Below, piece after piece: positions 1 through 46,469 of a DNA stretch of 46,469 nucleotides (position 1 is its first letter; the number at the start of each line of letters is the position of its first letter). Origin of the DNA: a virus; the IMG/VR virus record IMGVR_UViG_3300001473_000001, positions 1 to 46,469 of that record, one strand, 5' to 3'. Under the pieces are notes generated by a model. It ran no database searches. It was not told where the DNA came from and saw nothing but the letters and a program-made list of their open reading frames with translations. The position numbers were made by a program, and so were the translations under genes.

Positions 1-95
<95 letters not shown>

Positions 96-1769: not shown

Positions 1770-2033
1770 CTATCGGTAGACTTCCGACCGATCCGCAATG
1801 GTGTTCACGATGACGATGCGACCGTCGTCGTCGATCGTGTAGATGACCCGCCAGGACCCGACGCGGATCCGGTAGCCATCGCCCACGCTCAGCTTCTTGT
1901 AGCCGTGCGGGCGAGGGTCGCTGGCGAGGTCTGAAATCGCAACGCGGATTCGGTTGGCCTGAGTGGCATCGCCTTGCGCCAATCGTTTCAGGGACTTCTT
2001 GGCAGCCCGCGTGATCTCGATTTCGTACGCCAT
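1770..2033 (-). CDS. relE: RelE/ParE-family toxin
   Basis: 87-residue RelE-superfamily toxin, expected to cleave mRNA at the ribosome and inhibit translation. The whole family pattern is present: MAYEIEITRAAKKSLKRL start, the PHGYKKL segment, YRIRVGSWRVIYTIDDD strand pair and the C-terminal RSEVYR with conserved Arg and Tyr. ATG 2033 is preferred; a GTG two codons upstream (2039) is the alternative. Unlike ordinary relBE operons, the antitoxin is not upstream on the same strand but is encoded divergently at 2237. The gene looks intact. Confidence 0.88.
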   Translation of the reverse strand: MAYEIEITRAAKKSLKRLAQGDATQANRIRVAISDLASDPRPHGYKKLSVGDGYRIRVGSWRVIYTIDDDGRIVIVNTIADRSEVYR

Positions 2034-2236: not shown

Positions 2237-2515
2237 ATGAACAAACCGACCATCTCTGCGACTCGCGCTCGCACCGAGCTCACGCGGCTCCTGAGCCGCG
2301 CCGAGTTCAAGAGCGAGCGCATTCTCATCGAGCGCCAGGGGAAAGCAGTTGCCGCGCTCATCAGCGCCGAGGACCTCCAGCTACTCGAGTATCTTGAGGA
2401 CGTGCACGACGCTGCCGCGGCCCGCGCCGCTCTGGCCGAACAAGGCGACGAGCCCCTTGAGAAATTCGACGACGCGGTCAAAGACATCTTTGACGGCGCT
2501 TACGACGCCGAATAG
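2237..2515 (+). CDS. Phd/YefM-family antitoxin
   Basis: 92-residue antitoxin. The N-terminal half has the Phd/YefM fold pattern: ISATRARTELTRLLSRAE, then RILIERQGKAVAALISAEDL, the segment that dimerises and binds operator DNA. The acidic C-terminal half (EPLEKFDDAVKDIFDGAYD) would wrap and neutralise the toxin. ATG 2237 has AAGGA nine bases upstream; an upstream GTG at 2198 lies inside the operator repeat and is rejected. Its likely partner is RelE at 1770-2033, on the opposite strand. A strong terminator follows. Confidence 0.88.
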   Translation: MNKPTISATRARTELTRLLSRAEFKSERILIERQGKAVAALISAEDLQLLEYLEDVHDAAAARAALAEQGDEPLEKFDDAVKDIFDGAYDAE

Positions 2516-2538
2516 CTCGTCGATAAGACAGCACGTTG

Positions 2539-2569
2539 CCCCCGCCCGTCACCCCGGGCGGGGGTTTTT
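2539..2569 (+). terminator. Intrinsic terminator of the antitoxin gene
   Basis: Perfect 10-bp GC stem CCCCCGCCCG (2539-2548) and CGGGCGGGGG (2555-2564), 6-base loop, then TTTTT (2565-2569). It ends antitoxin transcription and insulates it from the leftward late operon ending at 2581. Confidence 0.9.
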
Positions 2570-2580
2570 GCGTCCGGATC

Positions 2581-2952
2581 CTACGGCGCCGTGCTGGCCC
2601 GCAGCCGCCGGAACTCTTCAAGCGCCGCGGCCCTCGCCTTCGCGCGCGCCGCCGGCGCCGCGCCCGCGATCGAGAGCTTCGCGAGCTCGCCGCGCAGGAA
2701 TGCGAGCTGCGGCTCGAGCTCGTCGGCCATCTCCGGCCGGCAGGCCAGAAGCCCGGGCTCGAGCCCCCGCGGGATGATCGGCGAGTAGAGCGGGTCGTTG
2801 CCCTTCTCGAGACCCTCGATGTAGAAGTCGAGCGCCTGGGCGACGTCGGCGCAAACGTTGCGCTCCGGCGATGAGTTCCTGGTGAGCAGCAGCGCCACGT
2901 TGGCGGCGAGGCTCACGACCAGGGCGACGGCGAGTAGGCGTGAGGCGGTCAT
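2581..2952 (-). CDS. Small membrane-anchored protein
   Basis: 123-residue protein, last gene of the leftward late operon. An N-terminal hydrophobic segment (MTASRLLAVALVVSLAANVA) looks like a signal anchor or uncleaved signal peptide. A soluble helical part with two Cys and a charged C-terminal helix (about residues 75-118) follows. Its ATG overlaps the stop of the lipoprotein gene upstream (ATGA), so the two are probably made together and may act together in the envelope. Function unknown. Confidence 0.65.
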   Translation of the reverse strand: MTASRLLAVALVVSLAANVALLLTRNSSPERNVCADVAQALDFYIEGLEKGNDPLYSPIIPRGLEPGLLACRPEMADELEPQLAFLRGELAKLSIAGAAPAARAKARAAALEEFRRLRASTAP

Positions 2953-3719
2953 GGGATCGGGATTGAGGAGACGCGGGCCATTCCCTGCGAGCGCCAGCAG
3001 CCGCTCGTGCCGCTTGCCACGCTGTTGATGATCAGGGCAGCGCGGGCGTTCTCGACCTCAACGGTGATCTCGTACTCGCTCACCGTGAAGAAGTCCCAGG
3101 GGTAGTTAGCCCACTCGAATGACACGAGCGACACCTCGCCGCCTTGTGTCGGTTCGGGCACGAGCCCGGCATCCCGCGCGAGCTGGCGTTCCGTCTGCGC
3201 GAGGCTGCCGGCGCCGAAGCCCGGGTCGATGGCGATGGCGAGCCCGTTCGGTAGGACGTCGGCGGTCCAGTTGGGCCAGGTTTCCGCCTGCTGAATTGTC
3301 ACCTGCGGAACGCGGAACGTCGAGAGGTCGAGAGGCTCGGTGCCCGTGTTCACGATCCGCATGAAGGCGGCCTGCTCGTGTTCTGCGCAGCCGGCGTTGC
3401 TGGCCACGAAGATTTCGCTCGGGAAAACGATGTCGAACGAGGCCTGCGTCGGCTCCGGAGTGTCTCCATCGCCATCCCCATCGCCGTCCCCGGTGGTCAT
3501 CGGCTCCTCGTCGCCATCCCCGTCGCCGTCGCCCGACGTGTCGTCGGCGCTGGTGTCGGTCGTGTCGTCCCCCGGCGGCTCCTCCTGCTCGCAGATGTTC
3601 GTCACGTCCGAGCAGAAAAACCCCTGGTCGCACCCGGTCACCTGGCAGGCGTCCGGGTTTGGAATGGTTGAGCAAGCTGCCGTCAGCAGGGCGAGCAGCA
3701 TTCGGAACCAAACGGGCAT
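2949..3719 (-). CDS. Lipoprotein with Asp-Gly repeats (host-like cargo gene)
   Basis: 256 residues from ATG 3719. A short signal sequence ends in LLTAAC, a lipobox placing the mature Cys in the outer envelope. A Cys-rich knot (CQVTGCDQGFFC...C) follows, then a low-complexity linker of Asp-Gly repeats (GDGDGDGD twice), then a beta-rich domain (about residues 90-250) with a conserved-looking Cys. This architecture is typical of myxobacterial (Nannocystis-type) surface lipoproteins and not of phage structural proteins. It is probably a lysogenic-conversion cargo gene or was acquired from the host. The frame is open 20 codons further upstream, but that part lacks signal-peptide character. Confidence 0.75.
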   Translation of the reverse strand: MPVWFRMLLALLTAACSTIPNPDACQVTGCDQGFFCSDVTNICEQEEPPGDDTTDTSADDTSGDGDGDGDEEPMTTGDGDGDGDGDTPEPTQASFDIVFPSEIFVASNAGCAEHEQAAFMRIVNTGTEPLDLSTFRVPQVTIQQAETWPNWTADVLPNGLAIAIDPGFGAGSLAQTERQLARDAGLVPEPTQGGEVSLVSFEWANYPWDFFTVSEYEITVEVENARAALIINSVASGTSGCWRSQGMARVSSIPIP

Positions 3720-3775
3720 CTCGCGGATGCTACATCGGCAGCAAGTTCTGGTCACGCTGCCGTTATCGGAGGCCG

Positions 3776-3789
3776 GCAACCCGGGTTGC
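3776..3789. promoter_or_regulatory. 14-bp perfect palindrome upstream of the lipoprotein gene
   Basis: GCAACCCGGGTTGC is a perfect palindrome about 57 bases upstream of the lipoprotein start, between it and the endolysin stop. A second inverted pair (CGGCAGC/GCTGCCG, about 3736-3762) follows. It may be an operator or processing hairpin giving the cargo lipoprotein its own control. No convincing -35/-10 pair was seen. Confidence 0.3.
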
Positions 3790-3803
3790 GCGGAAAAAAG
3801 CCT

Positions 3804-4505
3804 CTATTTTCGCGGCGCCATCGTGGCCATGAGGTAGAGGTCGCGCCGCCACCGCCCGTTTGGGTAGTGGAACCTTTCCACCTTCGCGAAGCGCTCGCCG
3901 CGGCGGTTCTTGTTGCCTTCGACCGTCACCATGGAGTCGGCAGCCGGGTCGTACGCGACGATGAACCCGATGTGCCCCTTTCGGCTCAGCGCCCCGAGCC
4001 GCGAGCGGTGCCAGCAAATGGCTGCGTTGACCTCGGGGTGAGTGCAACGTCGACCTGCCTCGGCCACGTTCTCGGTGAGGCGCTTCGCCCCGCGGGACGT
4101 GCGGAACGGCAGCCTGTAGCCCAAGCCCTCGCCCGACCGGGCGAAGCACCAGGATGCGTAAGAGGCGCACCAGGGCCCGTCCAGGTCCCATGGTCGGCCC
4201 GTCGCGTCACCGCGGCGGTACTTGTAAACCGCTTCGCCCCGGTTGTTCCCGGCCTTGGGGTCCTCGCCCTGCCCCTCCTCCCCCAGGGCGATGGCGACCG
4301 TGCGCTCCTGAAAAAGCGCCCAGTCCGGCGCATCAGTCGAGGGAGGGGAGATCGCTGCTTCGATCGACTCGACCGTGCGCCGGCCGGGCAAACCGTCGAC
4401 CTCGAGGCCGTGCGATGTCTGCCAGAAGCGCGTGAGCTCCACGATGTGGTCGTACGTGAAACGACCACTTCGGATTTCTCGTTGTACAAAGTCCCGGGGG
4501 GCCAT
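3804..4505 (-). CDS. Endolysin with CHAP-like amidase/endopeptidase domain
   Basis: 233-residue predicted peptidoglycan hydrolase. Residues 1-55 contain a short helical segment with a VDGLPGRRTVE motif resembling a peptidoglycan-binding repeat. The catalytic domain (about 65-233) has the Cys in GPWCASY (C113), the His in KGHIGF (H178) and a downstream Asn in VEGNKN, the triad order of CHAP/NlpC-P60 cysteine hydrolases. No signal peptide is seen, so export would need the holin at 4679. ATG 4505 was preferred over the GTG two codons upstream. Confidence 0.8.
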   Translation of the reverse strand: MAPRDFVQREIRSGRFTYDHIVELTRFWQTSHGLEVDGLPGRRTVESIEAAISPPSTDAPDWALFQERTVAIALGEEGQGEDPKAGNNRGEAVYKYRRGDATGRPWDLDGPWCASYASWCFARSGEGLGYRLPFRTSRGAKRLTENVAEAGRRCTHPEVNAAICWHRSRLGALSRKGHIGFIVAYDPAADSMVTVEGNKNRRGERFAKVERFHYPNGRWRRDLYLMATMAPRK

Positions 4506-4682
4506 ATGCACCTAAGTCCAGACGGAAAAGAGGGGTTGGCCCTTGCGCTCGAGTGGCTCGCGAAGCAGGTGCGCCTGGGCCTCGTGCTGGGGATTTCGCT
4601 CGAGGTGTCCGGCAACGTGAGCCGCATGGCCGTCACGTTCGTCAACGAAGAGCCGGACGGCCCTCCAGAGCCCAGCGACTAG
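4506..4682 (+). CDS. Small rightward ORF inside the leftward lysis region
   Basis: 58-residue ORF, ATG 4506 with GGGGGG just upstream, filling exactly the 170-base space between the holin and endolysin genes, where no leftward gene fits. The translation looks protein-like (LEWLAKQVRLGLVLGISLEV, then an acidic tail NEEPDGPPEPSD). It would be divergent from the endolysin and end over the holin stop. It could be a small regulator of lysis, or chance coding in GC-rich DNA. Confidence 0.4.
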   Translation: MHLSPDGKEGLALALEWLAKQVRLGLVLGISLEVSGNVSRMAVTFVNEEPDGPPEPSD

Positions 4683-5218
4683 GTTGCCGGTCTGCCGAGC
4701 GTCTTCGCCTTGGCGCCGCTCGGCAGCACCGACCAGGCCCCGGCCGCGGTGAGCGCGGCTGCGATCGAAGCCCAGAGCACTCCCAGCGAAAAGCCCTCGG
4801 TCGCGTACATGAGCGTCCCGAGCGTCGTGACGAAGGCCGTGCCGACGCCGAGCACCTTGCCGCCCGTCTTGCTGCTGGCCCATTCGTCGGCGAAGAACCC
4901 GACGATGCGCCGCGCGCCCCAGCCGATCAGCATCAGCGCGAGCGCGCCCACAGCCAGCCAGTCGCCGACTCGGGCCGCCTGCACCCCCGCGCTCACGATG
5001 CCCTCGGGGGTCTCGGGGGGCACACGCTCCTCGGCCTCAGCCGGCGTCTCAGGCCCGTCGCCGGGTTCGGGCGTCGCGATGTCCGTGTCGCTCGGCGGGG
5101 CCTCTGCGGCGGGCGGAGAGCCGTCGTCGACCGGTTGGGCCTGGGCGGCGTCGAGCGCAACGAACAGCCCCAGCACGCACAGGGCCGCAAAAAACATCAG
5201 GTCTCGGAATCCAGTCAC
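4679..5218 (-). CDS. Candidate holin
   Basis: 179-residue membrane protein. GTG 5218 overlaps the o-spanin stop (GTGA) and has a strong GGAGGGAG 7-8 bases upstream, so the longer upstream frame is rejected. It has an N-terminal signal-like helix ending AAQAQ, a Pro/Glu/Asp-rich periplasmic linker (about 30-85), then two or three hydrophobic helices (about 100-170). Lying between spanins and endolysin, it is the best holin candidate. It lacks recognisable similarity to a named holin family, so the role is from topology and context. Confidence 0.6.
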   Translation of the reverse strand: MTGFRDLMFFAALCVLGLFVALDAAQAQPVDDGSPPAAEAPPSDTDIATPEPGDGPETPAEAEERVPPETPEGIVSAGVQAARVGDWLAVGALALMLIGWGARRIVGFFADEWASSKTGGKVLGVGTAFVTTLGTLMYATEGFSLGVLWASIAAALTAAGAWSVLPSGAKAKTLGRPAT

Positions 5219-5526
5219 AGCGTTTCTCCCTCCGGCGGCGGTGCCGCCCCGCACAGCCGCTCCACCGTCTCGTGGTAGGCCGTCACGTCTTCGATCCATT
5301 CGTTCAGTTCGAGAGCGCCGTCGAGCGACAAACAGGTCTCGAAAGCGCCGATGCCGCATTGGAGCCAGACGTCCGGCGGCACCCCTGGCCAAGGTACGTT
5401 CGCCGCGCAGCTACGGTCGATCTTGGGGATTTCGATCGGCGGCCTTGCGCCCTCGCGACAGCAGCCGCAGAGCAGCCAGGCCATCGCCAGGGCGAGCGCG
5501 AGCCCGCAACTTCTTCCGTGCTTCAT
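5215..5526 (-). CDS. Outer-membrane spanin subunit (Rz1-like lipoprotein)
   Basis: 103-residue lipoprotein with a signal peptide ending WLLCGCC, Pro-rich mature start (GARPPIEIPK) and four further Cys. Its 5' end overlaps the i-spanin gene by 116 bases in another frame, the usual Rz/Rz1 arrangement. AGGAGG lies 7 bases before ATG 5526. As o-spanin it would sit in the outer membrane and bind the i-spanin coiled coil to fuse the membranes at lysis. Confidence 0.75.
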   Translation of the reverse strand: MKHGRSCGLALALAMAWLLCGCCREGARPPIEIPKIDRSCAANVPWPGVPPDVWLQCGIGAFETCLSLDGALELNEWIEDVTAYHETVERLCGAAPPPEGETL

Positions 5527-5755
5527 CGTTCCGCCTCCTGAGGTCTTCGATTTCCGCGCGAAACGCGGCGTCCTCGAGCTCGTCGTCTTCGAGCAGCGCC
5601 CTGATCTCGTCCTCGAGTCGGTCCCGGTCGGCCTCGCTGCGCGCGAGCTCGGCGCTCAGACCGCCGATGCGAAGCGAGAGCAAGACGACCGCCAGCACGA
5701 TCGCGAAGACGACCACACCGACGGCGAGAGCAGCTACTGGCGCAGACTCGGGCAC
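5411..5755 (-). CDS. Inner-membrane spanin subunit (Rz-like)
   Basis: 114-residue protein from GTG 5755, overlapping the preceding gene by 22 bases. One N-terminal transmembrane helix (AVGVVVFAIVLAVVLLSL) is followed by a long charged coiled coil (about residues 33-85) rich in Glu/Arg/Leu, the i-spanin layout. The C-terminus is Arg-rich. The start codon is uncertain because the Shine-Dalgarno sequence is weak; the much longer upstream open frame is overlap with neighbouring genes. Confidence 0.72.
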   Translation of the reverse strand: MPESAPVAALAVGVVVFAIVLAVVLLSLRIGGLSAELARSEADRDRLEDEIRALLEDDELEDAAFRAEIEDLRRRNDEARKKLRARARPGDGLAALRLLSRGRKAADRNPQDRP

Positions 5756-5979
5756 GGGCTCAAGTACCAGAGGAAAACCGTGTCGCCGCGAACTGGCGGC
5801 GCCGCCAAGAGCACGCGGTGGTCGCCGAGCTCGCACAGCTCGTCCCGCGGCCGCAGGTCCGGGCCGAACAGGTAGACGCTGCGAGGAAGGTACGGGTACG
5901 TCGTGAAGAACAGCCGTCGCTCGCCGTCGAGCAGCATCGGGTCGAGGTGCTCGATGCACTGCCGCGTCTGCTGGGTCAT
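5734..5979 (-). CDS. Small fiber-like beta-hairpin domain protein
   Basis: 81-residue protein whose ATG overlaps the stop of the diguanylate cyclase (ATGA). The pattern FFTTYPYLPRSVYLFGPDLR, an LxELGDHRVLLAAPP segment and GDTVFLWY matches the small beta domain often found in tail fiber and spike proteins (PYVPGSL-VYLNG ... PP-GD-V-V-Y). As a stand-alone gene it may be a fiber tip, trimer or virion accessory protein. Function is inferred from the motif only. Confidence 0.6.
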   Translation of the reverse strand: MTQQTRQCIEHLDPMLLDGERRLFFTTYPYLPRSVYLFGPDLRPRDELCELGDHRVLLAAPPVRGDTVFLWYLSPCPSLRQ

Positions 5980-6839
5980 CCCGCGACGCGCACCTGAGCC
6001 CGGCCGGCCCGCTTCGCCGCGAGCATGGCCTGGTCGGCAGCCTTGCAGAGCTCGTCGAAGTGCTCGCCGTGGTCGGGGTACAGGGCGCAGCCGACCGAGA
6101 CCGACACCGAGAGTTCGGCGTCGCCCAGCTTCACGGTGCGAGAGATGCCGTGGAGCAGCCGCTTGCCGAGCGCGACGGCGTCGACCACGTTGCTCACGCC
6201 CTCGGCGATGACGACGAATTCGTCGCCGTGCAGACGCCCCAGCACGTCGAGCTCGCGCAGGACGAGCCGCGCTTTCTCGGCCACCAGGCGGATCACGTTG
6301 TCGCCTACGGAGTGGCCATGCTGATCGTTGATGGACTTGAAGTCGTCGAGGTCGAAGTACAGCAGCGCCACTCGCTCGTTGCGGCGCGCCGCGCGAAGGT
6401 AGGCCTCGCGAAAGTTCGCGCGCAACGCCTTTCCGTTCGGCAGCCCCGTAAGCTCGTCGACCAGCGTGGCCCGGTGGTAGCGCTGGCGCTGTGCCAACGC
6501 GACCGCGACGCCGCGCGTGAGCAGCTCGTAGTTGTCTTTGCTGAGCACCGCATCGGCGCCCGCCTCGACCAGGTCGGCGACCAGGTCGTCCGTGACCATC
6601 CCAGACAGCACCAGCAACGGCACGTCGACCGCGGCTCGGCGCACCTGTTCGACAACCTGCGCATCCCGGTAGGGCCCGAGGCACAGGTCGCAGACCACTG
6701 CGTCAAAGCGCCGCTCGGCCAGCGCCGTGAGCGCGTCGTCGATCGTCGCCACGCTCACCCACGCCGCCGGCATGGCCTTGAGCGCCAGCATGGCATCCAC
6801 CGGGTTGTCCTCGACGAGCAGCAGGCGCAGGGCCTTCAC
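5976..6839 (-). CDS. Response-regulator diguanylate cyclase (REC-GGDEF)
   Basis: 287-residue two-domain protein. The receiver domain (about 1-115) has the acidic pocket E10/D11, phosphoacceptor D51 (VVCDLCLG), S79 and K101, all expected in an active REC. The GGDEF domain (about 125-285) has FDLDDFKSIND, GHSVGD with guanine-contacting N171 and D180, and the signature as HGDEF (204-208; first Gly replaced by His). An RELD inhibitory I-site (195-198) lies exactly five residues before it. It should make c-di-GMP from two GTP. D180 argues against the cGAMP-making Hypr subclass. It is embedded in the late leftward operon with 4-bp overlaps on both sides. A phage-borne REC-GGDEF here is very unusual. 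Confidence 0.92.
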   Translation of the reverse strand: MKALRLLLVEDNPVDAMLALKAMPAAWVSVATIDDALTALAERRFDAVVCDLCLGPYRDAQVVEQVRRAAVDVPLLVLSGMVTDDLVADLVEAGADAVLSKDNYELLTRGVAVALAQRQRYHRATLVDELTGLPNGKALRANFREAYLRAARRNERVALLYFDLDDFKSINDQHGHSVGDNVIRLVAEKARLVLRELDVLGRLHGDEFVVIAEGVSNVVDAVALGKRLLHGISRTVKLGDAELSVSVSVGCALYPDHGEHFDELCKAADQAMLAAKRAGRAQVRVAG

Positions 6840-7333
6840 CGGCGACGCCTCCGCTGCTGGGCCAGCTCCGCCTCGAGGCGCTTGACGGCCTCGGTGAGCT
6901 GCTCCAAGTCGCGGCCGATGAGCATCGTCTTCGTCGCGCTGTCGACCTGGGCCTCGCGCAGCAGCTGGATGCGGTTGTCGACCTGGTCGTCGAGGGCGTC
7001 AATGCGAGTCTGGATCGCCGCGTACTCGGAGCGGTCCGGGTACTTCGCCGCCTGCCAGACCCAGCCGCCCACCATGACGGCAACGCCCACGATAAACCCT
7101 GCGACACGCCACTTGTCCGCGGCCTTGGGCTGCATGCGTTGCTCGAGATCGGCCAGCTGGCGCTTGTGCGCGGAGAAGCGTTCGGCGCCGTTGTCTAGCC
7201 GTTCGACTAGCCGGCGCTCCACGGCCTCGAGCTCCCACTCGACCCTCATCACGCGTGATGGGATGTCGCCGAAGCTCATGGCACGCCCGGACGGGTCGGG
7301 CGGCTCGTCCGCGTTCGTCGGCCCCCGCGGCAC
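6836..7333 (-). CDS. Membrane protein with flanking coiled coils
   Basis: 165 residues from GTG 7333, with AGGTGG five bases upstream; its start shares a base with the upstream stop and its own stop overlaps the diguanylate cyclase start. A charged helix (about 30-70) precedes a single transmembrane segment (VAGFIVGVAVMVGGWVWQ) and a second coiled coil (about 100-160) ending in five Arg. It could be a class-III-like holin accessory, a superinfection factor, or a membrane partner of the cyclase. Not recognised. Confidence 0.65.
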   Translation of the reverse strand: MPRGPTNADEPPDPSGRAMSFGDIPSRVMRVEWELEAVERRLVERLDNGAERFSAHKRQLADLEQRMQPKAADKWRVAGFIVGVAVMVGGWVWQAAKYPDRSEYAAIQTRIDALDDQVDNRIQLLREAQVDSATKTMLIGRDLEQLTEAVKRLEAELAQQRRRRR

Positions 7334-8127
7334 TAGGCCACCTGCCGAATCTCATCGACGCGGCCCACCCAGTCGCCGTTGTGCGTTCCAAACTCGTACG
7401 TGGCGGGGCCGACGAAGACCTCGGGGCCGAACGTTGGGAAGCGGAATCCCGCCTCGGTGGCGGGCACCCAGGTCGTCTCGCCGACAGCCCGGTTGTCGAA
7501 CTCGACCGTTTGATTCGCCAGGCCTCGGACGCGCAGATCCATCACCGTGTTCGGCGCTCCCGGCGAGCCCGTGAAGTTCGCGCCCTCGTCGACGATCGAG
7601 TTGAATCCCGTGCCGTCGGAGTTCTTCTGCTCGATCGTGTAGTGCGTGCCGCCGCGGTGCCCGACGTTGTAGGCCCGATAGTTGAGCGACCCCAGCACGA
7701 GGTCGTGCACGAAGGCGCCGCAGAAAGCATATGGGCTGGCGACCAGGTGGGTGCCCGGAATGGGCGCAGCCGCGGCGTCGTCGATTCGGCCGATACCGAT
7801 GCCCAGGAAGTGAATTTCGAACGGGAACGCCACCCGCACGTAGTCGAGCCGGCCGTCGTCGCTCAGGTACCAGACCGTCTGGTTCCCGGCGTTCGTGAGC
7901 ACTGGCGCCCGGTAGCGGCCGTCGCGCTGCTCGACGCCGGGGATGGCCGCGGCGTTGTACGTCGACCAGATGCCCGGATCGAGGGGGGAGCCGTTCGCCC
8001 CGTTGAACTGGTCGACGAGGAGCCCCCCGCCAGCCGCGACCCCGCCCGCCCCAGCGGGCTTGCGAATGAGGTCGCCGACGCAGGGTGGCCTAAGGAACGG
8101 GGGCAGGCTCTGGCGGATGAACGACAA
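7333..8127 (-). CDS. Tail-associated lectin/glucanase-like beta-sandwich protein
   Basis: 264 residues. A TTG start at 8127 is supported by GGGGAGGG five bases upstream. After a short N-terminal tail-attachment-like segment and a Gly/Ala linker, the domain from about residue 37 on reads like a concanavalin-type beta sandwich (DQFNGANGSPLDPGIWSTYN, then many aromatic strands, and a final VGRVDEIRQVA). These are common in virion adhesins that bind surface glycans. Probably a receptor-binding or baseplate-decorating protein. Confidence 0.6.
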   Translation of the reverse strand: MSFIRQSLPPFLRPPCVGDLIRKPAGAGGVAAGGGLLVDQFNGANGSPLDPGIWSTYNAAAIPGVEQRDGRYRAPVLTNAGNQTVWYLSDDGRLDYVRVAFPFEIHFLGIGIGRIDDAAAAPIPGTHLVASPYAFCGAFVHDLVLGSLNYRAYNVGHRGGTHYTIEQKNSDGTGFNSIVDEGANFTGSPGAPNTVMDLRVRGLANQTVEFDNRAVGETTWVPATEAGFRFPTFGPEVFVGPATYEFGTHNGDWVGRVDEIRQVA

Positions 8128-8139
8128 CGCCGCCCTCCC

Positions 8140-8538
8140 CTACTCGTCGTCGTCGTCGATGAAGACGAGCTCGGTCTGGACTTGGCTCGTCGGGTTGCTC
8201 GCGGCGTGCGCTGATGCGCGGGTCGCTGCGCCGACGTCTTCGATGCGCTCAGCCCAGCCCGTGTCGCCGACGGTTATGTCGGCGCCGCCGTTCAGCGCGC
8301 CCGACTTGTACCAGTTGCCGCGAATGTACAGGTCGACGTAGACCGGGCCCGAGAGCGTCACGTCGCCGGGGCCGGCTGATGCGCCCTTGCGCACCAGGAC
8401 AATCGCGCGGTCGGGCAGGTAGCCGCCGTCGCGGGACGGAATCAGGTCGACGCCGTCACCGCCACCCGACGGCTCGGAGTAATCAGTGCTGTCGGCCTTG
8501 AGGACAACAGTGGCCTTCGTGGAGAGTCCAGATCCCAT
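8140..8538 (-). CDS. Tail/virion protein, hypothetical
   Basis: 132-residue beta-rich protein (VDLYIRGNWYKSGALNGGAD; acidic end FIDDDDE). It contains Gly/Asp-rich turns and no obvious domain. The position between the lectin-like protein and other adhesin candidates suggests a small virion or fiber-attachment component. ATG 8538 is the only good start. Confidence 0.6.
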   Translation of the reverse strand: MGSGLSTKATVVLKADSTDYSEPSGGGDGVDLIPSRDGGYLPDRAIVLVRKGASAGPGDVTLSGPVYVDLYIRGNWYKSGALNGGADITVGDTGWAERIEDVGAATRASAHAASNPTSQVQTELVFIDDDDE

Positions 8539-8552
8539 GACTTGCTCGCGGG

Positions 8553-9119
8553 CTACGGGTTGTAGAAGTCGAGGTCCACCTGGGCGAAGTAGTAGATGCC
8601 GGTGTTGTCGTTCTTCTTGAAACAGAGGTAGTAGACGAAGTCCGCGACGACGGCGTGCGGAAGGCCCGTGTCGGTCTCGTCGAAGGTCAACGTCCAGGCG
8701 TTGATGTCGGTCGGCACAGACTTGGTGACGACCGGAAACGGGAAGCCGCTCACGCCCTGCTTGCGGAACAGGGCGATCTCATCCGACGAATGCGCACCCT
8801 CGGACGCGCCGCTGATTGGGAAAGCACCGCTGCCCCGCACGCGAAAGCCGGTGATGACAGCGTTGGCCGGCAGGCTGAGCGGCAAGAACACTCGGTCCCC
8901 GTTACTCGTCACCGCCCAGTCGAGGCCGCCGTCCGGGCCCTGCTGCGAGGCCACCGGCGAGACGCCAGGCCCGCCGATCATCTGCTCGCTGCCAAGCACG
9001 ATCGTCTTGTCGCCGTGCTTCCCCCCAATGATCGCGTCTTGGATCTGAACCTGATCGACGGCTCGAAACGAGTCGCCTTTCGTGGGCGTTCGGAGTCGGA
9101 CTCGAGGCCAGCTGCTCAT
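8553..9119 (-). CDS. Tail fiber or baseplate-associated protein, hypothetical
   Basis: 188 residues, ATG 9119. The N-terminus contains a VDQVQIQDAIIGGKHGDKTI segment of the kind that attaches or trimerises fiber proteins. The rest is predicted beta-rich (SLPANAVITGFRVRG; FVYYLCFKKNDNTGIYYFAQ). It lies directly downstream of the gp48-like gene, where Mu-like phages carry tail fiber genes. No catalytic motif seen. Confidence 0.6.
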   Translation of the reverse strand: MSSWPRVRLRTPTKGDSFRAVDQVQIQDAIIGGKHGDKTIVLGSEQMIGGPGVSPVASQQGPDGGLDWAVTSNGDRVFLPLSLPANAVITGFRVRGSGAFPISGASEGAHSSDEIALFRKQGVSGFPFPVVTKSVPTDINAWTLTFDETDTGLPHAVVADFVYYLCFKKNDNTGIYYFAQVDLDFYNP

Positions 9120-9158
9120 GCCCTGCCAGGGTCCGGTCGACCCCGCGGAGGGTCAATC

Positions 9159-11105
9159 TCACGCCATGGGCGCTTCGTCGTAGCCCGATGCCGGGTCGTC
9201 GTAGAGGGCGACCCGCACGGTCGTCGCGCCGCCCTCGGTATCGGCGGGGCGCTTGCGCTCGAACAGCCGCTTGGCCCCCTCCATGTCCGCGTCGCCGGCG
9301 AGCGCCGGATCGCGGAACGCCTGCAGTGAAAACGTGTGCACGCCGAGCGGGAAGAACGAGCGCCATTGCGACGCCTCGATTTCGCTGTTGACCGAGGTCG
9401 TGACGCCTTCCACCGTGAGCAGGCCCCAGCCGACCCACGTCGGGCTCTCGATCGACGAGATAGTAACGAGCTGGTCGTCGGCTCCGTCGCCCGCCGCGGT
9501 CACGTAGGGGTCGCTCTCGACGGCGGCGATGTCCCACTGGCCGGCGCCCTTGTAGTTGATGATCCAGTGCGGCGGGATGGCGCCGAGCAGGACCGAGCCC
9601 GGGGGCTGCCCCGTCGACTGCGTCGTGGCGATGATGTTCCACGCGCCCCAACTCTGGTTTCGGTACTCGCGCCAGCCCCAGTCCCAGCCCCCCGCGCGCG
9701 GCCGGATGCCCACGAGCAGCAGGTCGCGCGACTTGCTCGCCTGGGCCAGGACGCCCGCCATCATGTCGCCATCAAGGGTGTACGACTCGACGTCGAGCAC
9801 CGCGTAGGTACCGACGCCGAAGTCGGCGAAGTCCTCGCTCGGGCGCCCGTCGACCACCTGCATCGCCGCGAACTGCCGTCCCAGACTGTAGGCGTTGTCG
9901 TTGCCTGCTGTGACGCCGAGGGCCGTGTGCAGGATGTTCGGCGCCGAGACGGCTCCGCCCGACTCCGGCAGGTACCACCAGTCCTCGAGGTCGCCGTTGA
10001 GGGCGTCGACGTGCTCGTTCGTGTACGTCAAGAATTCGACGTCGGCCTCGGCCAGGTCGAAGGCGTCGGCCATCGTCTTGGCCATGCCGGGCCGGTGATA
10101 GCCGTGCGACTGCAGCCCATCGGCGGCCCGCTGGCGGCGGCGAGCAATGGAGTCTCGGGGCCGCACGTACAGCCGGAGCAGCGACTCCCAGTCCTCGAGC
10201 AGCGAGTGGGCCCGGTTGGGCAGGTAGTCCTCGGCGAGCTCGGCGACCTTGGCCTTGGCCACGCCAAAGATATCGGACACCGCGCCGATGAAGCGCTGCA
10301 CCTTGGAGTCCTCGTCCTCGGAGAACACCCCCTTGGGCAGCAGTGCGCGCACAGCCTCCTCGGTCTCGGGCTGATGGACCAGGATCGAGCGCCAGAACTG
10401 CCGCAGCTCCTCGGCCGAGCGCACGACGCGCGACACCCGCAGCGAGTCGATGACGCCCAGGAAGCTATCCTGATAGTCGGCCGCTCCGTTGCCGCGGCAG
10501 CCCGCCAGGAACGTGCCGCCGTCGCCGCCCTCGATGTCGCCGGCCGTGTCGTTCCCAGTGCCGATGACCGTGCCGTTGACGCTGAGCTCGACGTCAACGC
10601 TGGCGACCGAGTTCCACTGCCTCGAGGCCGCGACCAGGATCGGCCCCTCAGGAATCGTGAACTGGGCAGCCACCTCGGCGACGACGTTGCTCGAGTCCTC
10701 CCACCACAGGGCGAGCTCGGCCGTCGTCGCATCAATCTTGCGCAGCACAAGCGCGTACAGCACGCGCTCGGCCGCGCTCACCGCGCCGCCCCGGCCCCGG
10801 GCGCAGACGGTGTAGTCGGTGGACAGCGCTGCCGCGTCGATGTCGAACTCGAGCAGCGCGTCGATCGTGAGGTTCTCACGCAGGCGGGTCGCGCCGGCGA
10901 CGATCTCGGTGCCGACCAGCCCTGAGTCGGCCACGAAGCGCCGCCCGTAGCCCGTGAGCGCCTCCTCGGTCGTTGGCAGGCTCAGGGCCGGGGACGAGCC
11001 CGAGTCGGGCCCCAGGTCGTTGAGCGAGCCCGCGACGTCGCTCGGCAGCACGGTCGCGTCGACCTCATTGAAGGGCAGCAAGACCGCCGTCTTAGTCGAG
11101 GACAT
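9159..11105 (-). CDS. Baseplate/tail protein: LamG-like domain fused to Mu gp48-like (DUF2313) module
   Basis: 648 residues, ATG 11105 with GGGAGGG upstream and a 14-base overlap with the preceding gene. Residues about 10-235 form a LamG/concanavalin-like lectin domain (LNDLGPDSGSSP start; FLGVIDSLRVSRVVRSAEEL end). Residues about 245-370 match the YmfQ/gp48 family (AVRALLPKGVFSEDEDSKVQ, LLEDWESLLRL), a baseplate protein. The remainder is beta-rich and unidentified. The lectin-baseplate fusion would display a glycan-binding domain at the tail tip. Confidence 0.72.
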   Translation of the reverse strand: MSSTKTAVLLPFNEVDATVLPSDVAGSLNDLGPDSGSSPALSLPTTEEALTGYGRRFVADSGLVGTEIVAGATRLRENLTIDALLEFDIDAAALSTDYTVCARGRGGAVSAAERVLYALVLRKIDATTAELALWWEDSSNVVAEVAAQFTIPEGPILVAASRQWNSVASVDVELSVNGTVIGTGNDTAGDIEGGDGGTFLAGCRGNGAADYQDSFLGVIDSLRVSRVVRSAEELRQFWRSILVHQPETEEAVRALLPKGVFSEDEDSKVQRFIGAVSDIFGVAKAKVAELAEDYLPNRAHSLLEDWESLLRLYVRPRDSIARRRQRAADGLQSHGYHRPGMAKTMADAFDLAEADVEFLTYTNEHVDALNGDLEDWWYLPESGGAVSAPNILHTALGVTAGNDNAYSLGRQFAAMQVVDGRPSEDFADFGVGTYAVLDVESYTLDGDMMAGVLAQASKSRDLLLVGIRPRAGGWDWGWREYRNQSWGAWNIIATTQSTGQPPGSVLLGAIPPHWIINYKGAGQWDIAAVESDPYVTAAGDGADDQLVTISSIESPTWVGWGLLTVEGVTTSVNSEIEASQWRSFFPLGVHTFSLQAFRDPALAGDADMEGAKRLFERKRPADTEGGATTVRVALYDDPASGYDEAPMA

Positions 11106-11688
11106 AGCCCACCCTCCCTGCGCCCTGGCCGAGGTTGCCGGGCTCGATCACGGGCGTGAGCTCACGCCCCGTCTCGAAGAAGTGATAGCGAGGGTTCGCA
11201 GCCGCCCCGCCGTCAATGATGCCCACCCAGTGCTCATCGGCCGGCGGGCGGGCGAAGATGTAGACGCCGCCCCCGAGCTCGGTGATCGTCGGCTGCTCAG
11301 CGATCGCCGCCCCCGTGCTCACCCGCAGCAGCGAAGCCCACGTCGGCGACGCTCCGGTGAGCGGGCTGCCGGCGGCGAGCACGGTCGGCGGCTCCCCCTC
11401 CCCGCCTGGGATGATGAGCTCCTCCGCACGAAACAGGGCGAACGACTCGCGAGCTCGAGCGGGCGCCAGCCCGTAGCGCGGGTTGGCCGAGGCCCCCATG
11501 TCCACCAGGCCGACGAAGTCGAAGTCGACCGGCCGGTCGAAAGCGTAGAGCCCGCCGCCGAGCTCGCGGAAACTCGGCCCGCTGATACTGGCGCCGCTGC
11601 CCGCGTTGTAGTCCGCAGCCCAGGTCGGCGTCTGGCTCGCCAGCGGAGCACCCGCGGCGTTGTAGATAGCAAAGGCCTCGGTCGTCAC
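11092..11688 (-). CDS. Tail protein made of two tandem homologous domains
   Basis: 198 residues from GTG 11688 (GTGA overlap with the upstream stop). Two repeats of about 60-70 residues are visible. GAPLASQTPTWAADY, RELGGGLYAFDRP and GASANPRY in the first correspond to GSPLTGASPTWASLL, TELGGGVYIFARP and GAAANPRY in the second. The duplication suggests a virion Ig-like or carpet-type domain pair. A C-terminal tail links to the adhesin genes that follow. Family not recognised. Confidence 0.65.
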   Translation of the reverse strand: MTTEAFAIYNAAGAPLASQTPTWAADYNAGSGASISGPSFRELGGGLYAFDRPVDFDFVGLVDMGASANPRYGLAPARARESFALFRAEELIIPGGEGEPPTVLAAGSPLTGASPTWASLLRVSTGAAIAEQPTITELGGGVYIFARPPADEHWVGIIDGGAAANPRYHFFETGRELTPVIEPGNLGQGAGRVGYVLD

Positions 11689-13603: not shown

Positions 13604-14113
13604 CTAGCGAAGTCGACGACGAGGCGTGGCCGCTGCCGCAAGCGACTCGATCGGATCCTGCGGTAGCTCGTCGTCGATCTCGTCGATGTCGGCCCGGCGC
13701 AGACCGTCGGGCAGGCCGGCCTCGAGCAGGTCTACGCCCGATGCCCCGCAGGCGCACTCGAGCCCCACGAGCTGGCCTTGACGGCGAAGGCCGCGCAGCC
13801 GACGGCGACCGCCGCGCACAAGCCGGCGCAGCCGCGAGAGGAATGGGGCGGAGAGCTCAGAGTTGCGCTGCACCCTCGCCGCCCCGATCTGCGACCGCAG
13901 ATTCACAGCCGCCGGCCGCGTGATCGTCCCCGAATAGAGCGCCCCGCCAGCCGGCCAGTCGGCGACGCGCAGGATGGCGATGCACTGATTCGGGCTCCGG
14001 CTCGAAATCCAGACGCCGCCCGACTGCACCATATTGCGCGGCAAAGACCAGTTGCCGAGGTCCGGTCGGCCGTTGCCGAGCTCGTCGGCGCGGATGATGA
14101 CGCCGAAGCTCAC
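13604..14113 (-). CDS. Baseplate-region hypothetical protein with Arg-rich middle
   Basis: 169 residues from GTG 14113, overlapping the gp46-like stop (GTGA). The first 75 residues look folded (LGNWSLPRNMVQSGGVWISS). A run of Arg-rich sequence and an acidic C-terminus (DIDEIDDELPQDPIESL) follow. Not recognised; probably a baseplate accessory. Confidence 0.6.
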   Translation of the reverse strand: MSFGVIIRADELGNGRPDLGNWSLPRNMVQSGGVWISSRSPNQCIAILRVADWPAGGALYSGTITRPAAVNLRSQIGAARVQRNSELSAPFLSRLRRLVRGGRRRLRGLRRQGQLVGLECACGASGVDLLEAGLPDGLRRADIDEIDDELPQDPIESLAAAATPRRRLR

Positions 14114-15270
14114 GCCGCTTCCACCTGGGTGACGATGTTGCCATCGGACTCGGTGATCGCGAAGCCCGACGAGACCTCGGGCGTGCCGCCCGTGTTCGAA
14201 ATTACGCCGGGCACGCCATCGAGTGTGAAGTCGATCTGGGTCGCAGCACGCGCAGCGATGCCCCCGGACGTCGGGATGTACTCGGTGGCCTCAGAGCCCT
14301 CCTCGACCTGCATGCCCCAGAGCAGAAAGTCGCCGTTTGCGCGCACGTCCATTCGCGCACTGGTGGAGCCGGCGACAAACGTGAACGTGTATCGATCCCA
14401 GTCGGCGCCAACGGTAAAGTCGGGACTCGCACCGGATGCGGCCGAATTGAAGTCCACCGTCTGCGGCGAGCCGTCCTTGCTCTTCATGTACGCAGAGGCG
14501 GTGTACGTCTGCCCTGATACGACGGTGGCCCCGGTACAACGAGCGCCGAAGATGGACGTCGAGGACTGCACGCGGGCCGCAGTCGTAGTGCCGTCCGGGG
14601 CGACGTCGTCGTTGTTGGTAATCGTGGCCGAGCCGACGCTACCGAACGACTCGGAGTCCTGCTCGAGGTTGGTCGCCGCCGGCGGCACCGACGCACCGAT
14701 GCGCGCAAGAGTCTCGCTCCACGCGTAGGCGTAGACACCCGACAGGAACTTGATGACTTCGTCGCCGCCAGCACCGATCGCGGTCCGCGGTGCGCTCACA
14801 GAGCCGCGCGAGTACGTGTCGACCTCCGCCGGCGCAGACGTCCCCGAGAAGTCCAGGACCGTGGCAACCGGCGGCACAACCGGCGCGGCCGGCGCGGGCT
14901 GAATCCGATTGGTACGGAACTGCAGCGCCTGGAGCTGCGTCACGTCCAATGCTTGGCCGGTCCGCGCATCGTAGACGGTGATGCGCTGAAACAGCCTGTC
15001 ACGCTCCGTAGCGCGCTCGAATTCGACCCGGTCGAGAATCAGCCCGTCGTCGATGAGCCGCTGCAGCGCCCGCATATAGCCGTCCTCGATGCGCTGGACG
15101 TCGGCCTCGGTGACCCGCGGCATCTTCTCAAGCCCGGTGTCGTCGCCCCACCAGCCCTGCGCCTGCGCCAGCTGGGTGTAGACGTCGTTGCGGGCGTCGG
15201 TGGCCTCGACGAAGCCGCCCTCGCCATCGTCGATCCAGTCCTTGGTCTCGGGGTCGATCTCGAAGTTCAT
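14110..15270 (-). CDS. Mu gp46-like baseplate protein with grafted C-terminal carbohydrate-binding-like module
   Basis: 386 residues. The first 120 match the gp46 family (KDWIDDGEGGF, QGWWGDDTGLEKMPRV, YMRALQRLIDDGLI). From about residue 145 a different domain begins (SGTSAPAEVDTYSRGS, YTASAYMKSKDG, LLWGMQVEEGSEATEYIPTS), typical of CBM-like jelly-roll modules in virion proteins. The same module is found at the C-terminus of the gp37-like protein at 22432. The module probably decorates the baseplate and binds glycans; that role is inferred. Confidence 0.75.
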   Translation of the reverse strand: MNFEIDPETKDWIDDGEGGFVEATDARNDVYTQLAQAQGWWGDDTGLEKMPRVTEADVQRIEDGYMRALQRLIDDGLILDRVEFERATERDRLFQRITVYDARTGQALDVTQLQALQFRTNRIQPAPAAPVVPPVATVLDFSGTSAPAEVDTYSRGSVSAPRTAIGAGGDEVIKFLSGVYAYAWSETLARIGASVPPAATNLEQDSESFGSVGSATITNNDDVAPDGTTTAARVQSSTSIFGARCTGATVVSGQTYTASAYMKSKDGSPQTVDFNSAASGASPDFTVGADWDRYTFTFVAGSTSARMDVRANGDFLLWGMQVEEGSEATEYIPTSGGIAARAATQIDFTLDGVPGVISNTGGTPEVSSGFAITESDGNIVTQVEAA

Positions 15271-22431: not shown

Positions 22432-23916
22432 CTACGGAAGGGCGACCGCCTTCGCGACCAGGTCGCCGATGACCTCGGAGTCGCGCAGCGCAAAATCGTT
22501 GTCCCCGAGCGTGAGCACGGGCCCGGCCCCGTTGTTGCCGATGCGGCCCGACTCGCCCTCAAACTCGAAGTTGATGACGGTCGACGCGCGATCGGCGGCG
22601 GCTCCGTCGGTCCGGATCCACGGCGTCGGCTGGGTACCGGCCTCGAGCTGGATGCACTGAGGCATCCAGATGGCCTCGTTGATCGCGGGGAAGATGAAGC
22701 GCACCAGCGCCTCGGTCTTAGTGGCCACGAACGCGAGGTAGTACTGGACCCACGCCTCAGTCAGGTTCACGTCGAGGTCTTCGATGACCTCGAGCGTCCC
22801 GGTGTCGGCTCGCATGCGAATGACGTCGGCTGGATTGAGCACCCCGCTGAAGGGCCCCAGGTCCGGCTCTGTCGGCTTGCGCATATAGGCGCTGAAGCAA
22901 TACCAGGCGCCGATCGTGAGGGTGCCGACGGACACGGCGGCCTGCAACCGTCGGTCGAGCCCCGAGAGCGACACGAGTAGAGCCTGAACGTTGCCGATCG
23001 GCCCCGGAACCGACGAGGGCGCCGCGAACTCGAAGACGTCGTCCTCCGTCCAAGCGGCGTTCCCTGGGTCCGCCGCCGGTGAGTAGGCCAGCAGGTTGCG
23101 CCCCGACGGGGGCACGATCGCCGCCCGGCTGCCAGCATGGGGAAAGCTCGCGTCGACGCCGTAGGCGTACTCGTCCGCAGCGAACTCGGTGATCGTCGGC
23201 CCGTCTACCGTCACTGCGGTCACCGCGGTCACGGGCGAGCTCCGGCTGTAGCTGGTCACCTCTGCCGGGGCGGTCGTGCCGTAGAACTCGACGCCCGGGA
23301 TGTCCAGGTCGCGATCGGCTTCGACGATCGGGTCTGCCGTGTCGTCGCCGGCCAGGTTCGCGTCGATGCCCATCTCGGTGACGTACGGAGCTTCGGCGAG
23401 CGGATTGTCGGCCTCGATGTCGGCGTCGACCTCGTAAACCAAGCGCCAGACGCCCCAGTCCCCCGCGCGCGCCAAGGAGTTCTCCGAAAGCGGGTACGGG
23501 CGCCTGACGCACTCGATGCCCAGGTTGGCGCCGAAAAGCCTGTCGCGAACGTCCTGCATGAGCTGGTACAGGCCGGGGTCTTCGCTGAGCTGGGTGCTCC
23601 GAACGTCACCGCGAGCTCGTGCTTCGAAGTTTCGGGTGTGATTCGAGAGCGCGTAGATGACGATCTGCAGCGTCATCTCGGCTGTGCGCCGGCGCATCGT
23701 GATCTCGTCGTAGCCCGCGTCCTCGGTCGTCACCAACAACGCCGGGCCGCCACCGTCGAGCAGACGTTTGACGTCGTCGCTCTCCGGCGAGGGCGGGCCC
23801 TGGTACGGCTTGAGCGTAACGAGGTAGCCGTCGGCCGCCCCACCCTTGCCAGGCTTGAGCAGCGGCGTGAGGGCCGCAATCACGGCGTCCTCGATCTGCG
23901 TCCGCAGCGCCGGCAT
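22432..23916 (-). CDS. Mu gp37/DUF1834-like tail protein with grafted C-terminal carbohydrate-binding-like module
   Basis: 494 residues, about three times the usual gp37 length. Residues 1-190 resemble the gp37 family (RTQIEDAVIAALTPLL, GGGPALLVTTEDAGYDEITM, YQLMQDVRDRLFGANLG). Residues about 215-490 form the same module as in the gp46-like protein (YGTTAPAEVTSYSRSS, CFSAYMRKPTE, PQCIQLEAGTQPTPWIRTDG). Such a large decoration on a tail terminator-like protein suggests an exposed ring near the head-tail joint. ATG 23916 overlaps the upstream stop by one base. Confidence 0.72.
   Translation of the reverse strand: MPALRTQIEDAVIAALTPLLKPGKGGAADGYLVTLKPYQGPPSPESDDVKRLLDGGGPALLVTTEDAGYDEITMRRRTAEMTLQIVIYALSNHTRNFEARARGDVRSTQLSEDPGLYQLMQDVRDRLFGANLGIECVRRPYPLSENSLARAGDWGVWRLVYEVDADIEADNPLAEAPYVTEMGIDANLAGDDTADPIVEADRDLDIPGVEFYGTTAPAEVTSYSRSSPVTAVTAVTVDGPTITEFAADEYAYGVDASFPHAGSRAAIVPPSGRNLLAYSPAADPGNAAWTEDDVFEFAAPSSVPGPIGNVQALLVSLSGLDRRLQAAVSVGTLTIGAWYCFSAYMRKPTEPDLGPFSGVLNPADVIRMRADTGTLEVIEDLDVNLTEAWVQYYLAFVATKTEALVRFIFPAINEAIWMPQCIQLEAGTQPTPWIRTDGAAADRASTVINFEFEGESGRIGNNGAGPVLTLGDNDFALRDSEVIGDLVAKAVALP

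Positions 23917-46374: not shown

Positions 46375-46469
<95 letters not shown>

Follow-up and report, generated by a model that had tools for sequence, protein, structure and literature searches.

A putatively temperate, Mu-like phage encodes a predicted REC-GGDEF diguanylate cyclase between its adhesin genes and its lysis genes. On balance, the protein is best read as a cell-derived and probably active enzyme that would be made together with the lysis proteins and raise c-di-GMP late in infection.

The cyclase gene and its two domains

The gene lies at positions 5976-6839 on the minus strand of the window, which is the whole IMG/VR record of 46,469 nucleotides; the plus-strand translation of 5976-6839 is meaningless. 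It starts with GTG, stops with TGA and encodes 287 residues, arranged as a receiver domain (REC, residues 1-102), an alpha5/linker segment (residues 105-126) and a GGDEF domain (residues 126-281). Pfam searches identified GGDEF at residues 126-281 (2e-40, 138.6 bits vs. a cut-off of 23.8) and Response_reg at residues 7-102 (1.3e-8, 35.4 bits vs. a cut-off of 30.2), and both matches are far beyond chance. These results bear out the two-domain protein proposed in the initial annotation. The residues singled out there are also in place, namely D11, D51, S79 and K101 of the receiver, and N171, D180, the GDEF of the HGDEF signature (residues 204-208) and R195-E-L-D198, five residues ahead of the signature. 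The codons of the R195xxD198 I-site and the HGDEF motif are located within 6198-6257 on the minus strand, as computed from the translation.

The AlphaFold2 model of the cyclase has a mean pLDDT of 95.9, and the active-site region, for which a structure prediction had been suggested, is modeled with high confidence. A Foldseek search with the model retrieved PleD and WspR, and the full-length match was the native state of DgcR of Leptospira biflexa (PDB 6zxb, 6zxc and 6zxm; PMC8041772), a small prototypic REC-GGDEF cyclase. The phage protein and DgcR have the same domain order, lengths of 287 vs. 298 residues and the same fold (TM 0.76, 294 columns), and the phospho-acceptor residues, the guanine-binding Asn and Asp and the RxxD motif are present in both. 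However, the two are only ~24% identical, and the signature is GGEEF in DgcR vs. HGDEF in the phage cyclase. The phage protein further differs by a linker of 27 residues instead of 31, a Val at the aromatic switch position and its location in a lysis operon.

The GGDEF active site

Residue comparisons between the cyclase and 99 cellular GGDEF domains showed that the metal-binding Asp (D163), the D206 and E207 of the motif, the guanine contacts N171 and D180 and the phosphate contact K276 are all kept. The RxxD I-site, a common but not universal element, is kept as well. The signature HGDEF departs from an exact GG(D/E)EF at H204. The initial annotation considered the first Gly to be the only alteration, which holds for the motif but not for the domain, where four further deviations were found: R136 is replaced by Gly (Arg in 93 of the 99 cellular domains), Y273 by Leu (Tyr in 95), A125 by Thr (Ala in 87) and L183 by Ile (Leu in 96). 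In this comparison R136G and Y273L appear as uncommon changes within the GGDEF domain, which would count against an active enzyme.

A natural HGDEF signature is present in seven of the 99 cellular relatives, the sample having been chosen in part by this motif. Mutagenesis of VCA0965, in which all substitutions were made at the first motif position, left activity only with the native Ala, Gly, Met or His, and the HGDEF form raised c-di-GMP about 3-fold (PMC3974145). The His is thus not expected to be fatal to activity, because the same change in VCA0965 leaves that enzyme active. The concern of the initial annotation that HGDEF might abolish activity is thereby largely answered, although most first-position mutants of VCA0965 are inactive and the tolerated residues vary among enzymes (PMC3974145). 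As judged from its residues, the phage cyclase is probably catalytically active. In Hypr enzymes, Ser or Thr takes the place of the guanine-binding Asp of canonical cyclases. The phage protein has D180 at this position, so the product is expected to be c-di-GMP rather than cGAMP.

The receiver and the linker

The receiver keeps E10, D11, D51, S79 and K101, leaving the acceptor chemistry intact. The switch position, three residues before the conserved Lys, is occupied by V98 in the phage protein, compared with Tyr or Phe in eight of nine homologs and Cys in the remaining one. The linker between the REC Lys and the DxLT motif has 27 residues, vs. 32 in nine cellular homologs, 31 in DgcR and 39 in a second phage REC-GGDEF protein described below. 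Linker lengths of REC-GGDEF proteins go in steps of seven residues, a heptad rule (PMC8041772); the linker of the phage cyclase is five residues short and falls outside this rule. Both the aromatic residue and the linker length series of a DgcR/WspR-type phospho-switch are therefore missing.

These features suggest that control by phosphorylation is altered or lost, which is where the present reading differs most from the initial annotation. Because the linker is short and out of phase and the switch aromatic is missing, the receiver is suggested to act mainly as a dimerization or docking module, or to be unusually coupled to the GGDEF domain. The same deviations could make the enzyme weak or poorly controlled. 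Among the phage proteins scanned, there was neither a histidine kinase nor a phosphodiesterase domain. Any phosphoryl input would thus be expected from the host, as no histidine kinase is among these proteins.

Position of the cyclase gene among the late genes

The cyclase gene overlaps both of its neighbors by 4 nt. The TGA stop of the upstream gene (6836-7279, minus strand), which encodes a coiled coil, one hydrophobic segment and a second coiled coil, overlaps the cyclase GTG in GTGA (6836-6839), and the ATG of a downstream ORF of 81 residues (5734-5979, minus strand) overlaps the cyclase TGA in ATGA (5976-5979). A ribosome-binding-like GGAGG is located 8 nt ahead of the GTG start. Further upstream are Mu-like tail genes and genes of lectin-like adhesins, and downstream are nested spanin candidates, a holin-like protein and an endolysin. 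The placement between adhesin and lysis genes with 4-bp overlaps, as initially described, is confirmed in both overlaps and in context, and a phage-encoded, probably active REC-GGDEF enzyme in a late/lysis operon is likewise supported by the sequence analysis.

The candidate inner-membrane spanin (5411-5755, minus strand; start codon uncertain) consists of a hydrophobic segment and a coiled coil. The gene of the candidate outer-membrane spanin, a small lipoprotein (5215-5526, minus strand), starts inside the inner-spanin gene, and its stop codon overlaps the gene of the holin-like membrane protein (4679-5218, minus strand) in GTGA. None of the three has a family match, and the spanin and holin labels are assigned from arrangement and sequence features alone. 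The endolysin (3804-4505, minus strand) has a CHAP domain (Pfam CHAP 4.5e-7, PHROG endolysin 1.3e-7). A scan for sigma-70-type sites showed no sigma-70-like promoter in 2500-9200, and the minus strand showed no terminator-like site in 4668-9200. The GC3 of the cyclase gene is 0.90, and both GC3 and codon usage are within the range of the phage structural genes. The cyclase gene is accordingly situated inside a structural-lysis unit with coupled reading frames.

The upstream membrane/coiled-coil gene has no match in phages. It was considered as a conserved GGDEF partner and dropped, having neither a phage match nor detectable homology to a look-alike that precedes a GGDEF gene on another contig (L114, see below). 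Just downstream of the endolysin gene is a predicted lipoprotein with a (GD)n-rich stretch (2949-3719, minus strand), for which no family was found beyond a weak low-complexity match; it could be a superinfection-exclusion or conversion protein. In the tail region, two proteins (14110-15270 and 22432-23916, both minus strand) have similar carbohydrate-binding-like C-terminal extensions (SAPAEVDTYSR / TAPAEVTSYSR ...), and a short internal duplication is present within 11092-11688. The similar extensions and the duplication possibly represent a shuffled adhesin module.

The phage genome and its host

The two ends of the window (1-95 and 46375-46469) are identical over 95 nt, comprising 47 nt of the 3' half of a tRNA-Phe(GAA) gene (1-47 in the left copy, the attP core) and 48 nt of non-tRNA sequence. 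A tyrosine-type phage integrase (45117-46208, plus strand; PHROG integrase 1.2e-48) ends 166 nt ahead of the right repeat. In an integrated prophage, the repeat would be expected to end with the tRNA core. The longer repeat seen here is therefore taken as an assembly overlap, produced when a circular genome was opened at attP. Together with the integrase, it gives the record the appearance of a complete temperate phage lacking host flanks. Matches to sheath, baseplate, hub, head and portal proteins identify the phage as a Mu-like myovirus. Near the left end is a RelE-like toxin gene (1770-2033, minus strand; PHROG 2e-16). Single-protein scans of viral contigs with the cyclase, the sheath, the head protein, the portal and a 545-aa gene beside the portal found no sibling phages, and the sheath likewise gave no relatives when scanned against genomes.

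A Nannocystaceae host was suggested by the (GD)n lipoprotein, but neither the lipoprotein nor its C-terminal domain has a match in 189 Myxococcota genomes. Portal matches in Myxococcota genomes are only 25-27% identical. The tRNA-Phe core with at most two mismatches is present in 2 of 189 Myxococcota, 0 of 200 Gemmatimonadota and 9 of 398 Pseudomonadota genomes, and as a sequence is no guide to the host. The Pseudomonadota genome G543 (54-57% GC over the stretches that were read) contains the exact 47-nt core twice (L196 and L197). One copy is part of a tRNA-Phe gene that is directly followed by an integrase-like ORF, and the other is a lone 3' half. Nothing else of the phage is near the core; the arrangement suggests that the att site is shared with an unrelated element.

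Cellular relatives and origin of the cyclase

Among the full-length relatives found, REC-GGDEF(-EAL) proteins of Myxococcota are the closest at 39-40% identity, the Myxococcota being the group searched most thoroughly. These proteins (G027, G030; L087, L088, L096) match the phage cyclase over REC and GGDEF and have the same VEDNP-type receiver. However, they are cellular proteins with an EAL domain, in some cases an extra REC, a canonical GGDEF and a 32-residue linker, all of which the phage cyclase lacks. In a 142-row GGDEF tree built by a quick method and with weak support, the long branch of the phage protein lies next to a Myxococcota row, and the protein is not grouped with the other viral rows. 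The best reading of these comparisons is that the gene is cell-derived, a bacterial REC-GGDEF gene captured by the phage.

GGDEF proteins in other phages

Diguanylate cyclases were initially described as very rare in phages, which is too strong; GGDEF genes are an uncommon but established component of phage genomes. In PHROG, seven families match this domain, all labeled as of unknown function, and a viral structure library holds several GGDEF proteins. A pattern scan of IMG/VR gave at least 540 contigs with GGDEF relatives before filtering, some of which are probably host DNA. The Bacillus phages SP-15 (SP15_150) and G (gp350) encode GGDEF proteins in real phage genomes, as here. However, these proteins have no REC, and neither gene is in a lysis cassette, that of SP-15 being in a polysaccharide/nucleotide-sugar cluster and that of G among other genes. 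None of the reference-phage GGDEF genes examined is located in a lysis cassette. A Mu-like virus of the Cariaco Basin has a diguanylate cyclase proposed to alter host signaling (PMC7785012); it shares a Mu-like phage type and a cyclase with the phage studied here, a likeness drawn from the published description.

A search of phage proteins for REC-GGDEF genes in viral context, a check named in the initial annotation, found a 133-kb contig (IMGVR_UViG_3300049847_000494, L158) with consecutive genes of a histidine kinase, a lone receiver and a REC-GGDEF protein (L158:6883-8885) and genes of DNA polymerase, exonuclease and PhoH nearby. Its REC-GGDEF protein (292 aa) resembles the cyclase of the window in its domains. 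However, the two are 24% identical, and the L158 protein has a canonical GGDEF, a 39-residue linker that obeys the heptad rule and its own histidine kinase adjoining. From these differences it looks like an independent acquisition, and as an example of two-component c-di-GMP signaling owned by a phage it may be stronger than the gene of the window.

A further GGDEF protein, of 452 aa, was observed alike in three giant-phage metagenome contigs of IMG/VR (L110, L113 and L114; L114:7053-8810), its gene directly behind a small membrane/coiled-coil gene and near genes of terminase, portal and ribonucleotide reductase. The sole full-length match in INPHARED, in Pseudomonas phage Y11, was set aside as an UNVERIFIED and unannotated record with the match in a 542-aa ORF. 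The cyclases of Escherichia phage vB_EcoS-683R6 and Microcystis phage MaAM05, which are among bacterial chromosome genes, were also rejected. In two INPHARED records labeled as phage (MW495066 and ON470595), the cyclase regions are plainly bacterial chromosome. Phage GGDEF surveys from such collections thus need filtering.

Proposed function and alternative explanations

We propose that a temperate Mu-like myovirus captured a bacterial REC-GGDEF gene and that start/stop codon overlaps with its neighbors would have fixed it in the late transcription unit, with tail/adhesin genes on one side and the lysis cassette on the other. Gene order, the overlaps and the lack of promoter-like sites point to transcription and translation of the cyclase with the lysis genes. 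The enzyme would dimerize, condense two GTP into c-di-GMP and be subject to product inhibition through R195xxD198. It contains no phosphodiesterase domain, and would increase the c-di-GMP level of the infected cell just ahead of lysis. As a guess, the likeliest benefit is a host held in a sessile state of high c-di-GMP, with less motility and more matrix or surface polysaccharide, during the production and release of progeny. Host c-di-GMP can alter phage sensitivity, as for N4 in E. coli (PMC8669472), which makes an effect of the extra c-di-GMP on surface polysaccharides plausible by analogy. A more specific version, in which a c-di-GMP pulse from the lysis cassette, with receiver control rewired, times or conditions lysis or reshapes the host surface before release, is improbable on present evidence.

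The gene might alternatively serve in lysogenic conversion, as a moron expressed mainly in lysogens and promoting biofilm formation or stress survival of the host instead of acting late in infection. The integrase and attP of a temperate phage fit this explanation, as do the host-behavior roles that authors propose for viral cyclases (PMC7785012). However, the gene overlaps both neighbors and is inside the lysis unit rather than at its border, and no promoter-like site of its own was detected, in a scan of sigma-70-type sites that an unusual internal promoter could escape. Because the gene leaves no space for a promoter of its own, expression as a moron in lysogens is less likely than a late cyclase, and we regard it as unlikely while giving it some weight. 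Slightly less credit is due to a protein with little or no catalytic activity that has been retained to sense c-di-GMP through its I-site, or as a phosphoryl-group decoy through its REC, and that acts on a phage or host partner. HGDEF, R136G and Y273L, the altered linker and the loss of the switch aromatic would agree with such a protein, as would the inactivity of most first-position mutants of VCA0965 and the enzyme-dependent tolerance (PMC3974145); against it, the direct metal, guanine and phosphate contacts are all kept, His is among the few tolerated substitutions and the structure model is highly confident around the active site.

Synthesis of another cyclic dinucleotide, a Hypr-like 3',3'-cGAMP, for example against a nucleotide-based defense, is very improbable. 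Hypr enzymes are present in Myxococcota and in other groups formerly placed in the deltaproteobacteria, and the nearest relatives detected here also come from Myxococcota; however, D180 is present where Ser or Thr would be expected, and PADLOC gave no match. Least probable of all, to the point of being nearly negligible, is a chimeric assembly or host contamination that joined a bacterial gene to a phage contig. Cellular homologs exist and some phage-labeled GGDEF records are bacterial contamination (MW495066 and ON470595), but here the reading frames overlap those of late-unit genes on both sides, the codon usage matches, the ends of the complete phage are identical and bear attP, and no more than about 40% identity is reached by any cellular match found. 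The chimera with host DNA that the initial annotation feared is strongly disfavored by these overlaps, codon usage and ends, which also make a recent contaminant very unlikely.

Phage-encoded GGDEF proteins are known, and the present one is an unusual version of them in its REC-GGDEF architecture, its placement in a lysis cassette and its apparently altered coupling, rather than a new kind of system. GGDEF genes recur across phages, with hundreds of IMG/VR contigs before filtering and one with its own kinase and receiver. If the late cyclase favored here is active, it would be a clean case of a c-di-GMP-producing enzyme of a temperate phage translationally coupled to lysis genes, and would turn the vague idea of viral signaling genes into a testable late-infection function. 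A c-di-GMP pulse from the lysis cassette, if true, would be a dedicated second-messenger step in the phage lysis program.
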